A DNA stretch of 33,945 nt from Polyangiaceae bacterium (lineage in GTDB: Bacteria > Myxococcota_A > Polyangia > Polyangiales > Polyangiaceae). The stretch spans positions 1 to 33,945 of the forward strand of contig JADLFU010000095.1 in NCBI GenBank assembly GCA_020849655.1, read 5' to 3'. This document shows positions 1,476 to 7,039 of this stretch, piece after piece (position 1 is the first letter of the stretch; each line of letters begins with the position of its first letter). Made by a program: the position numbers and the translations under genes. Below the pieces are notes generated by a model. The model was not told where the DNA came from. It searched no databases and saw only the letters and a program-made list of their open reading frames with translations.

Positions 1476-1491
1476 AGGAGGGCAAGCGATG
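1476..1491 (+). promoter_or_regulatory. Strong ribosome binding site and ATG that decide the start
   Basis: AGGAGG (1476-1481) is followed by a 7-nt spacer and ATG 1489-1491. It is the best Shine-Dalgarno and start combination in the window. The ATG runs straight into the GTCTC repeat and is out of frame with the long protein in the sequenced state. Confidence 0.75.
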
Positions 1492-4400
1492 TCTCGTCTC
1501 GTCTCGTCTCGTCTCGTCTCGTCTCGTCTCTGCTGGCCATCGGCGCGGTGATGTCTTCGGGCCAGGCTCGCGCTGACTGCGCGCTGTCACGGGCGCTGGT
1601 GCTGCCTCCGTCGATGGACCCCGCCCTGCGCTGCGAGCACGACCAGGACGACAACGGGCTCGACGACGAGGTGGAGCTGGAGCTCGGCCGATGCCTGGCG
1701 CCCGCGTTCCACTTTCAGACGGGGCACGTCGAGCCGCCGACGCGTGTGCTGTTCAACGCGCACGGGCGGGTCCCGAGGGGCGCAGACGGCCAGGCGCTCG
1801 GCCCGATGGAACTCATCTTCAAGTACGTGTACCTCTGGCCGAGAGACGACGGCTTCACGCTGATGGACTGCTGGCAGAAGGCGAAGGACGAGTGCAAGTA
1901 CGCCCTCCTCTTCCCCCCCGCGTACGCCACGTGCCTGGCCGAGCAGGCCGCCTTCTGCGAGCTCTCGTGCGTGGAGAATGGCCACGCGGGAGACGCTCAG
2001 TCGCTCGAGGTCCGCGCTGCGCTGTCGTACCGCCCCGGACGGTGGTCCGTCGCTCCGCTCGACGCGTCGGGGTTCTCGGCAGGGGTCCACCCGGTCCTCG
2101 AGTTCCCCGGCGACCGCCTCCAGGTGTACCTGTCGCCGGGGAAGCACCATTTCTACGCCAGCCCGGCCGCCGACGCGACCTACGGCATCGGCGCCGCAGG
2201 CTATGACTGCTTCGATCCCCACGACGGCGGCAGCGGCCCCTACGTGTTCGACGATCTGAAGCCGATCCCGGTAGAGCCGAGGGAGGCGAGCTTCGTCGAC
2301 GACGCGGTGCCGGCGGACACGTGCTCCCTGTGCCCGAGCTGTTGCGACGGGCTCCCGTGGGCAAACGCGTGCGCGCGTCGCGGAGGCGTCGACGCGCCCA
2401 GCGCGACGTTCGGCACGCCGGACATCGGCATGCCCGGCTGCAGCCTCTACGACGAGCACTTCTGCGGAGGACGCGACGTCGGCAGCCCAGTGGCGATGAT
2501 CCGCTGGGACAGGGGGGAGGTCGACGACGTGGACGGAGACGGAGTGCCCAACGCGGTCGACGCCTGCCCGCTGTGGCCGCAGCCCGTCGCGGAGGGCCCC
2601 GGCTCCGACGGCGACCACCTCCCGCCCGAGTGCGACCCAGATCCGCTCCACCACAACGAGTACGTGGGCAAGGGCGGCGTGCGGTCCGACGGCTCGGTCG
2701 CCAAGGGCACGGTGGCCACGCTGTCTCCGGGCACCCCGTTCGCGCCGAAGGCGACGCTGGGCGGGGGCTACGCCGACTTCGACGGTGACAACGTCGCGGA
2801 CGGCAGCGATCTGTGCCCGAGCCTGCCCGGGGTGAAGGCCGACGTCAACGTCGCGGCCGAGTGGGCAGAGACCGACTGGAACCAGCAGGGCATGGCGCTC
2901 GACCTCGAGCGCGCGAGCGACGCGGCGACCGCGCGGTCGATGAGCGCCCAGACGGGCTACGCCCACCGGGCGAACCCTTGCGATCCGTACCCGGTGTCGC
3001 GCACGAGGGCCTCCTCGAACGACTCGATCGACGCCAGCGCGGCGTACTTCTGCAAGGGGACGGTCGACATCGAGGTGGGGACCAGGTCCATCCCCATCGA
3101 GACCGAACTGTACGCCGGGACGAGCGCCAACGAGGTCGCGCCTCAGGCGGGGCGCACCTATCTCCTCGGCGGCCAGCGCTGCAACTGCGGAGACCGGGGC
3201 GACTGCCTCCGCGACCAGGACGACGACTGCTTCTGGGGCAACACGCGCGCGGGGTTCCCCCAGCACTGGCGCGGGTGGCGACCTACCTACTCGAGCGGCT
3301 GCGCCCTCGATGCCGACGAATTTTGCGTCGCGCCGCCGACGGAGACGCAGCGGGGCGTGACGGCCCAGGTGGCGTCGCGCTGGGACTGGGCGGAGGAGCG
3401 CGCGCTCTTCCCGGATCACTTTCGTCCCGGTGGCTTCGAGCTCGCGCCGCCGACGCCGCAGAACCCCGGGGGCTACTGGCGGAGCGTGGACAAGTTCGCC
3501 CTCGGCGCCATCGTCCAGGAGGGGGCCGACTTCACCTCGCCGCCCGGGGCGCTCCTGGCCTTTCACCCCGGTCAGTCGCTGTACGCCGAGCCCGACACGG
3601 GCGCCGACGGGGCCGCGCTGAAGATTCACGTGGCGAACACGGAGGAGAGTCGCCGGCTGCGGGTGTCACGGTTCGACGCCCTGCTGGCGCCCGCCGAGCC
3701 TCACACCAACGCCGTCCCGACAGGGTACTGTCTCCCGCCGTGGCACGGCGATCTGTCGTTCCTCGACGATCCCGTGCTGGAGCTCGGCGACGGCCGGCAG
3801 CTGCTCGAGCGCGGGCGGCGGCTGGTCGTCGGCCGGGCTGGCGCGAGGCTCGGCGACGTCACGGTGCTCGACGGCGCCGCGAACCTGCGGCGCGCGGTCA
3901 CGCCGGCGCCCTCTGTCCCCTCCTGGCTCGGCGACGGCGAGGGCGCGTTCTCCGTGGTGCGCGGCGCGCTCGACGAGCCCGTGTCGGGGGGTGACACCGC
4001 GATGCAGCGGGCGCCGTCGCCGTCTCTGCTCTGGGTCGAACGCGCGGAGGACGCCCCGGCGCGCTGGGCCGTGCTCGCCGCCACGTCACAGAGCGAGACG
4101 GCGGTGACGTACGCCGTCCTCCGCGAGGGGGTGGCGCCGTTCTTGTTCTCCCGCGCGGGCCTCGTGGTCAGCGACGCTCGCGCGGGCACGGTGGCGGTCG
4201 TCGACCCCACCTCCGGCCTGCTCGCCTCCTACGACGCGACGTCGAGCCAGTGGGCAGTCCACGACTCCGATCTCGTCCGGCGCACGGGCGCATCCTTCGT
4301 GCTCGACGGCGCGACCCTCCTCGTCGCCGGTGGGGCAGTCGCGGGCGAGGCCACAGGGGCCGTGGCGCTCATCGACGTCCGAGACGGGCGGGGCTTCGTG

Positions 4401-5687
4401 CGCGGCGGCTTCCCCGCCCGCACGCGGCCGGTGGTCACGCTCGCGCGTGACTCGCACGTGCTGATCCTGGGCGGCGGTGTGGCCGCTGACGGCCAACCGC
4501 GCGACGACGTATGGGCGCTCGACACGACCTCACCGACCTCCGTCGCGTACCAGCTGCGCGGCGCGACAGTGGGCGGGGCGCTCGAGGCCGGCCGTGCGCT
4601 CCTCGACGTCACGCTGCTGACGGGCGCTGTGTCGGGCATCTTCCAGACCTCCGACGGCTGGACGGAGACCCGGGCCAGGGTCGACGGCGGGTGGCGCGAC
4701 GCGGACGCCAGCGCGAGCCGCGCCACGTGCCGGCGCGACGACGCGCAGGGCGGGCAGCTGTGCGCGTTGCCCGGCGGCGACGAGTGGTCGTCGCCAGGAC
4801 GTGTGACGTGTGACAGCGACTCGCCCCCCCACGCTTGCCAGGGCGCCCCCGGCGACGTGCGCGTGACGTCGACGCTGCCCGCGCCCGGCACCATCGACGC
4901 CGACCTCTCCGCCGACACGCTCTGGACGCTGGGGCGTCGGCGCGCAGAGCGGCGGCGCCTGGGGCTCGATCTGTCAACTGTCTCGGTCGACACGATCCCG
5001 CTCGGCGCCCGCGCGCACGACGTCGCGGCTGGGCAGGACGGCGCGCTCATCGCGACGGACGCAGGCTTCGCCTGGATAGCGTCGCGCGCGACGAACGCCA
5101 CGCTCACTCCCGCCTGCGGCGAGGTTCTGCGCGTGGCGAGCCTCGGCCCGCGCCGCTGGGCTGGCGTGACGACAGTGGGCATCGTGGCGGTCTCGACGGA
5201 GTCCGGCGCGCCGGTGGTCACGTCCCAGGCGCTGTTGTTGCCTCGAGAGGGCGACGACGGGCTCGAGCTGACCGACGTGCCAGCGGGGGCCGCAGGCCGA
5301 TTGCTGTGTCTCGCGAGTGAGCGAGCGCTCGGGAGGCGCGCGGTCGAGAGGCTGGCGCAGTCCACGTCGCTCGAGGGCATCGGGACCGACTCCGTGCTGG
5401 TCGGGCGCGGGCCGATGCTCGCACGCCTGCGGCTCGGGGGTGACGCCTTCGAGGTCACCGGCTGGTTGACGATCCCGGAGGCCCTCGACGCCCTGCGGTT
5501 CGACGCCGCGGGCCAGCGCGCCTACGGCGTCACGGGCCACACCGAGCGGGTGTTCGACCTGCGGGGCGGCGGCCTCCGGGAGTCGCCGGGCGCGGGCGTC
5601 GGCGCATGGATTCGCCGACGCGACGTGGGTGACACCTCGCTGCTCCTCGGCCCCTCTCTCGTGCGCATGGCGCGGGTGTCGCGATGA
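1489..5687 (+). CDS. Large exported protein, VPS62-like N-terminus, thrombospondin type 3 repeats and beta-propeller; apparently phase-variable
   Basis: As sequenced, the continuous frame ending at 5687 can only be entered from the TTG at 1419 or the ATG at 1551. The proper start, ATG 1489 behind AGGAGG, is one frame off because of the GTCTC repeat. With one unit fewer the protein would begin with a signal peptide of about 27 residues ending SGQARA before an Asp-Cys mature start. The mature part (about 1,370 residues) opens with 'DDNGLDDEVELELGRCLAP'. A domain with 'GHAGDAQSLEV' and 'SPGKHHFYAS' follows and resembles VPS62-like surface domains. Next come Cys-rich stretches and Ca2+-type thrombospondin-3 repeats (DVDGDGVPNAVDACP, DFDGDNVADGSDLCP). 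The C-terminal half is rich in blades like 'LLVAGGAV' and 'VLILGGGV', suggesting a Kelch-like propeller. No membrane anchor is seen at the C-terminus. It overlaps the next gene by ATGA. It is probably secreted or surface located; the function is unknown. Confidence 0.8.
1491..1530 (+). repeat. Eight tandem copies of GTCTC inside signal-peptide codons
   Basis: Forty bases of perfect 5-bp tandem repeat, starting with the G of the ATG. The unit length is not a multiple of three, so each gain or loss by slippage shifts the frame. With 7 or 10 copies the ATG at 1489 reads into the long protein and gives a signal peptide. With the present 8 copies it stops at TGA 1549-1551. With 9 copies it stops at the TGA near 1573. 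Confidence 0.95.
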
Positions 5688-7039
5688 GCCCGCGCGCGTG
5701 GGCGGGGCTCGCGGCGCTGTGCCTCGCCGGGGTGGCGAAGGCGGGGTGCACCTCCGACTCGGGTGATCTTGCGTCCACCGCCGGCGCGGCCGGCGCGGCG
5801 AAGGCAGGCGCCGACGGCAGGGGCGGTCGGGCAGGTGGGGCGGGCGCCGGCGCCGGCGGCAAGGTGTGGGGCGCAGGCGGTGTCAGCGGCAAGGCGGGCG
5901 CGAGCGGCGGCGGCGGCTGCCCCGAGATCACGGCGAGCGGGGTGGACGGCTTCGTGCCGGTCGCCCCGTGCCCGAAGAACTTTGCATGCGGACCTGGGTG
6001 TTCACCCATCTTCTCCGTGGGCTACCGCAGCCGAAACCTCAGCAAGTTTCGCGTCGACCCGGGCGGCGTCGTCGACACGGCCGGGCCCACGCTCCTCTAC
6101 CGCGCGGCCGGCGCAACCGAGACCCAGCAGGTGGGGATGCCCGAGAGCGGGAGCGTGTTTCTCCACGCTGCCCTGTCTCCCAGCTACCTGGTGACTCGGC
6201 ACTACACCAAGCCAGAGCCCGAGGAGTCCTCCAGGCAGAACTACATGCACATCTATGACCGGGCGACGGGCAAGCTCGCGCACTGGTGGTCGCTACCCGG
6301 CACGGAGGGCGGGCCGTCGCGGGTGTACTGGGGGGCGGCGGCGACCGACAAGTATGTCCTCCTGTCGACCGGCGCCTCGCTGCTGCGCTTCGATCTGATG
6401 ACCGGTGGCGCGCCGAAGGTCCTCGCCGACTCCAATTGCTACATCGCCCAGATCGTGAACGGACAGTACCTGTGTGCCGACGACTCGAGCCTCCAGTTCA
6501 CTTCGGTCGACATCGAGACGGGCGAGCGCACCACGCTCGCGCCCGGCCCCGAGATGCAAGTCGGCGGCAGCTGCGCGTTCGACGGCAGCGCGTGCGCCTG
6601 GGTGGACTACCGCGACCCGCCCGGCGACAAGTCGACGTTCGACCTCCGAATGGGCGGCGAGGTGTACCGGTTCGACCTCGCGTCGCGGAAGCTGGAGCGC
6701 CTGACGTTCGACTCGCCGGCGACACCCCACACCAAGTACAGCGCGGTCGTGGAGGGAGACTGGGTCGTCTGGCAGCAGCGCTCCGCGATAGACACAATCG
6801 CCGGCGGGTTCACTGTCCCGTCGTTCCAGCGGCTCTACCGCGACGATCGCGCGACGGGCACGCGCTGCTGGTACCCGCTGACAGGCGTGCTGGCCGGGGA
6901 GCTCTATCAACACAAGCTGTACGCCTTGTGGTACGACCCCAACGTGGCGTACCAGGACCGCGTCGTGGCGATCGATCTCGACAGCCCCGAGATCCCCTGG
7001 GAGTGCGGGCCTGCGCCGGCGCCGGTGGTCGTGCCGTGA
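5684..7039 (+). CDS. Exported beta-propeller protein with Gly/Ala stalk
   Basis: A 451-residue protein whose ATG overlaps the stop of the preceding gene (ATGA, 5684-5687), so translation is probably coupled. An N-terminal hydrophobic segment ends VAKAGC at about residue 22. The Cys suggests a lipoprotein, but Lys at -3 makes the lipobox atypical, so ordinary signal-peptidase cleavage is also possible. A Gly/Ala/Lys-rich linker follows to about residue 78. The rest has repeated blade-like strands such as '[20 protein letters not shown]', '[15 protein letters not shown]' and '[16 protein letters not shown]', each a 'x-D-x-x-T/S-G/R-K/x' turn typical of WD/TolB-like propellers. It probably works outside the inner membrane with the large protein before it. 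The substrate is unknown. Confidence 0.8.

Follow-up and report, generated by a model that had tools for sequence, protein, structure and literature searches.

A pentanucleotide tract ahead of a secreted-protein gene as a candidate phase-variation switch in a Polyangiaceae genome

Architecture of the (GTCTC)8 locus

The window, that is, the whole stretch of 33,945 nt that was analysed, corresponds to contig C95 in the draft genome of a Polyangiaceae bacterium (G000; 6.56 Mb in 307 contigs, 97% complete), which is probably metagenome-assembled. Close to its beginning, a Shine-Dalgarno (SD) sequence and a predicted start codon lead directly into eight GTCTC units, followed by a long coding frame and a lipoprotein gene (Table 1). 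A first-pass annotation of this DNA had drawn attention to the AGGAGG, the 7-nt spacer, ATG 1489 and the eight perfect units, and we recovered each of these elements. The chance expectation of the tract is 0: runs of three or more GTCTC units gave six overlapping matches in the window, compared with 0.00 expected from 100 dinucleotide-preserving shuffles. On the + strand, no sigma-70-like promoter was found upstream.

Table 1. Features of the locus, in window coordinates
Feature	Position	Strand	Basis
Shine-Dalgarno sequence AGGAGG	1476-1481	+	sequence
Spacer GCAAGCG, 7 nt	1482-1488	+	sequence
Predicted start codon ATG	1489-1491	+	7 nt past the SD; arrangement recurs in paralogues
(GTCTC)8, proposed slipped-strand switch	1491-1530	+	Tandem Repeats Finder, 100% match
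Short frame of the sequenced OFF state, 20 codons and TGA 1549-1551	1489-1551	+	translation
Main coding frame, 1,384 codons, stop 5685-5687	1530-5687	+	G+C by codon position, dN/dS, weak Pfam matches
Signal-peptide core and cleavage region LLAIGAVMSSGQARA	1530-1574	+	start of main frame
Partner lipoprotein gene, 451 aa, ATGA overlap with preceding stop	5684-7039	+	start ATG 5684

In the assembled state, the frame opened by ATG 1489 translates as MSRLVSSRLVSSRLCWPSAR and reaches its TGA after 20 codons, as had been proposed. With 8 units the window gene is OFF, and the ATG is in frame at 7 or 10; the earlier statement that at either number it joins the long frame carrying the signal peptide also held. 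The tract itself is stop-free in every frame, reading VSSRL. As in contingency loci, it is a perfect tandem repeat above the mutable length, with a unit that is not a multiple of three, and it lies between the start codon and the gene body, where copy number sets the frame.

After the signal-peptide core, the main frame encodes a TSP3/kelch-like protein of ~1,370 residues that is predicted to be secreted and that gave weak matches only, to TSP_3 and Kelch, when compared with Pfam. Its G+C content at the three codon positions (73/56/91%) fits a coding frame, and a peptide-pattern scan of GTDB contigs found no relatives of the protein. The annotation had also described the downstream gene as coupled by ATGA. 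This coupling to the lipoprotein gene is real, and it is kept in the congeneric genome (G026:C83); similar lipoproteins are also encoded 3′ of the homologues G026:C76 and G000:C207.

Unstable tracts at the starts of exported-protein genes

Across the genome, at least 14 genes for exported proteins carry a pentamer tract, the window gene among them. We counted 15 pentamer arrays in the genome (GTCTC/GAGAC, GGCTC and GCCTC), and 14 of these CTCGN-type arrays are located at most ~25 nt past an ATG, in genes whose products have an N-terminal signal peptide or lipobox. The 14 genes are spread over 14 contigs and their products are TSP3/kelch proteins, HEXXH-metallopeptidase lipoproteins and one trypsin-TSP3 protein. 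The sole exception to the start-site pattern, found by a (CTCGV)n array scan, is an intergenic array in C158. When related copies were counted once, five out of six array families were at gene starts (P ~6e-8 in a rough model of uniform placement in which 2.5% of the genome counts as within reach).

GTCTC accounts for 11 separate arrays, the shortest with 5 units and the longest with at least 16, all of them 2-21 nt past an ATG. The reversed-pattern control gave 0 matches in the genome; for GGCTC the same control is uninformative, its reverse being a rotation of GGCTC. On the coding strand, GTCTC is present in the window gene, in its paralogues C113 and C226 and in a different TSP3/kelch gene, C139. 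The complement, GAGAC, is on the coding strand of seven other genes, which encode lipoproteins with a lipobox (LSGC), an HEXXH metallopeptidase motif and FG-GAP-like repeats, and Pfam identified metallopeptidase and FG-GAP in this second family. The arrays of C6 and C261 are cut off by contig ends, and both were placed in the GAGAC lipoprotein group because the upstream flank is shared. The metallopeptidase-lipoprotein family also carries GGCTC in the same place, in C299 (17 units, in frame, 834 aa) and in C43 (4 units, out of frame), while in the trypsin-TSP3 gene C105 (CGCCT)11 directly follows ATGTCA. Pentamer copy numbers in the paralogues range from 4 to 17 units, these and the other tract lengths of this genome being assembly values from the 307-contig draft that may be consensus. 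The SD and ATG ahead of the array are kept in C113, C226, C139 and C105, as well as in C76 and C83 of G026.

Two further observations concern these paralogues. In the metallopeptidase lipoprotein genes (L009, L010, L013-L015, L017, L018), a conserved stretch precedes the GAGAC arrays, consisting of TTGCGC, ~17 nt and TATCAT ending ~7 nt before the ATG, and the transcripts are possibly leaderless. C226 (L016:1883-2112) equals C113 over the array and ~75 bases and is then unrelated up to the contig end, which may reflect a chimera or an insertion.

Unstable tracts of other kinds occupy the same place in related genes. C215, a distant member of the metallopeptidase family, has C14 between its ATG and its signal peptide and is OFF (ON at 12 or 15); a congeneric homologue of that family, G026:C397, has G8 inside the lipoprotein signal peptide and is OFF as well (ON at 7 or 10). 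A congeneric trypsin-TSP3-kelch gene carries a long CGTC/TCCG tetramer tract directly after its SD-ATG (L164:1413-1500, G026:C83), and its trypsin-TSP3 counterpart here, C251 (L172:1455), has three tetramer units only; both are out of frame. That related genes carry different kinds of unstable tract at one and the same position is the strongest indication of selection for instability itself. Together with 13 further pentamer arrays in the same place, it supports the annotation's suggestion that the window tract is a candidate slipped-strand switch.

A 584-kb sample of the genome was examined for other repeat types. Homopolymers of at least 9 nt were absent and those of at least 8 nt occurred twice, and there were three arrays of at least 30 nt: the window tract, the (CGCCT)11 of C105 and a heptamer. 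The latter, (CCGTCCT)16, is at a contig start, away from gene starts (L132:3-118, G000:C103).

Tract and frame could be resolved in 16 genes (13 here, two in G026 and one in G226), four of which were ON and 12 OFF; compared with an expected one third ON (P = 0.60), this distribution is as expected for an unconstrained frame. ON copies with full-length frames are present (C79, 786 aa; C299, 834 aa), C193 is also ON, and in-frame copies were assembled with 9, 12 and 17 units. The OFF copies differ in their offset, the window gene having one unit too many and C139 and C145 one too few. Since the required copy number modulo 3 differs among genes, neither a single systematic error nor a single frameshift site explains the OFF state. 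Each pentamer is open in all three frames, Arg included (VSSRL, ETRRD, GSARL, (R)LASP), and such an Arg-containing, stop-free reading would suit a signal-peptide n-region of changing length.

Conservation and distribution in relatives

Two GTCTC arrays are present in the MAG KLAP97 (G026), the one other species of the genus that was compared, and each lies in a homologue of the window gene. G026:C83 is the ortholog (78-89% identity), has its array at the same ATG next to a different flank and is in frame at the start; G026:C76, the second homologue, is out of frame. The annotation had pointed to unit counts in related genomes as a way of checking the switch, and in the congener they are 8 (C83) and 23 (C76). 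Tract position is conserved among relatives and copy number and frame state vary, this variation being between species and paralogues rather than within a species.

The window gene and G026:C83 gave dN/dS values of 0.18 (219 codons) and 0.24 (228 codons), 447 codons together, so the orthologous parts of the window gene are under purifying selection (dN/dS ~0.2). For the partner lipoprotein gene the ratio with the congener was 0.41, and the GAGAC-type lipoprotein paralogues showed weak constraint (0.3-0.6, few codons). Purifying selection on the coding frame, the in-frame array of the congeneric ortholog and the mixture of ON and OFF copies further strengthened the case for a switch.

The G026:C83 copy looks damaged, as its frame is interrupted further on by a stop codon and ~920 residues are missing internally; these lesions and two further frame breaks in C43 suggest that some members of the set are probably decaying. 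As a separate observation, runs of G10 (L150:2171-2180) and G8 (2698-2705) in the middle of C43 coincide with frame changes and may represent a second unstable site, decay or sequencing errors.

Elsewhere in the family (108 genomes) and the class (317 genomes), GTCTC arrays occur in few genomes and are nearly always intergenic. The presence of intergenic arrays in other genera indicates that mutation tends to some extent to generate the repeat. A class-wide GTCTC switch system, first suggested by the class search, was dropped because the arrays are intergenic outside the genus and RBC066. Scanning 84,980 genomes for SD-ATG-(GTCTC)4, with the window's own genome records left out, we found the arrangement in six contigs, two from KLAP97, two from the Myxococcales MAG RBC066 and one each from a deltaproteobacterial and an alphaproteobacterial MAG. 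One readable contig of RBC066 contains a galactose-oxidase-like kelch lipoprotein gene that is OFF at 6 units.

Probable slipped-strand phase variation, its alternatives and its parallels

The best explanation, and in our view a highly probable one, is that (GTCTC)8 is a contingency-locus switch that undergoes slipped-strand phase variation and works like the opa genes of Neisseria but is unrelated to them in sequence. Replication slippage would add or remove one 5-nt unit in the tract, and the resulting copy number would decide whether ATG 1489 shares a frame with the signal peptide and the TSP3/kelch-like protein. The ON product would be exported, whereas in the OFF state translation would arrest and yield a peptide of ~20 residues. 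A switch to or from ON should also change translation of the ATGA-coupled lipoprotein. Because the frames are stop-free and each repeat brings one Arg, the ON variant may tolerate many copy numbers as an n-region of variable length. The benefit would be that clonal cells differ in their surface proteins and proteases. In mutation-accumulation lines of Myxococcus xanthus, single-unit tandem-repeat changes made up 27 of 39 indels, and the mutation rate of tandem-repeat loci, one pentamer included, was up to ~820 times that of other sites (PMC11069108), which indicates that myxobacterial replication does slip on such tracts.

We regard as unlikely an alternative in which neutral microsatellite growth affects tolerant or decaying genes, that is, the n-region tolerates repeats, mutation bias expands the pentamer and the OFF genes are pseudogenes. 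This explanation would account for the OFF majority (12/16), for the further lesions in G026:C83 and C43 and for the pentamer being also intergenic in other genera, but it fits poorly with the dN/dS of ~0.2 across 447 codons of the ortholog pair and with arrays that, in this genus, are almost exclusively at gene starts. Several tract types arose at the same place in related genes, full-length ON copies (C79, 786 aa; C299, 834 aa) coexist with the OFF ones, and decay by itself hardly accounts for retention of the tract in an ortholog from a second species.

It is very improbable that assembly or sequencing errors led to miscounted repeats in the draft and that the real copy number keeps every gene in frame. 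Ordinary reads are far longer than the 40-nt array, the offsets vary by locus (one unit over in the window, one under in C139 and C145), copies of 9, 12 and 17 units were assembled in frame, and the independent assembly KLAP97 reproduces this gene architecture, at 8 and 23 units; these results outweigh the fragmentation of the draft into 307 contigs and the position of arrays C6, C261, C226, C145 and C174 at or near contig ends. Least probable of all is that the gene is always made, from another start or through a programmed frameshift within the array: upstream of the array only TTG 1419 offers a start in the right frame, and GTG/ATG codons in that frame exist 3′ of the array, but all of these lack an SD, those past the array would lose the signal peptide, the SD-ATG ahead of the array is conserved and the array contains no slippery heptamer. 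We rejected a single programmed frameshift site, since the window gene and C139 require shifts in opposite directions and one site cannot serve all genes.

Slipped-strand switching at these loci would resemble opa in mechanism, not in membership. In Neisseria opa, pentanucleotide coding repeats (CTCTT/CTTCT) are located in the signal-sequence-coding 5′ end of many loci per genome; these encode surface proteins, and the frame of each is open or shifted independently of the others (PMC13183285, PMC5953494). Here too, pentamer tracts lie in the signal-sequence-coding region of several dispersed loci. In contrast to the outer-membrane beta-barrel of Opa, Pfam returned TSP_3/kelch (weak) and metallopeptidase plus FG-GAP for the proteins of this genome; the units are GTCTC/GAGAC, GGCTC and GCCTC, plus homopolymers and a tetramer; several protein families are involved, with the repeats just past the ATG, in the n-region; and the host is a large-genome Myxococcota and not a small-genome pathogen. 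PhasomeIt uses a cut-off of at least 5 pentamer units for Neisseria (PMC5953494), which all counted pentamer tracts pass except C43 (4 units). Hypermutable non-triplet tracts at gene starts are likewise shared with the SSR contingency loci of Haemophilus, Campylobacter and Neisseria. Such loci and phase variation are described as typical of small-genome pathogens (PMC11475388), whereas the host family here has genomes of up to 16 Mb. Phase variation in Myxococcota is known from the yellow/tan switch of M. xanthus, a regulatory, colony-level switch in which >200 genes are altered (PMC4880591); a paper on M. xanthus phase variation names no slipped-strand or repeat mechanism (PMC3986340), and we found no description of repeat-driven phase variation in Myxococcota in the open-access literature.

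On a broader scale, it seems rather likely that a large-genome environmental Myxococcota lineage has built a "phasome" in which at least 15 genes, for secreted proteases, TSP3/kelch adhesin-like proteins and lipoproteins, switch independently of one another, with several kinds of tract recruited to the same place in different families and clonal cells displaying different surface-protein sets. Contingency loci have been seen as a habit of small-genome pathogens that face immunity without many sensors (PMC11475388). If the proposal is true, the presence of an opa-like set of genes in bacteria that have large genomes and are not known to be pathogens would mean that the strategy pays off elsewhere too, perhaps in encounters with phages, protist grazers or prey or in kin recognition, and the selective reason for phase variation would become testable outside host immunity.

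Apart from the counted genes, another genus of the family (G035) has (GAGAC)9 in contig C132 (L048 around 1714-1760), near a pilin gene. This array was left uncounted because the pilin ATG lies 3′ of it; an SD-like ATG lies on its 5′ side, and this arrangement might allow translational control of the type IV pilin.
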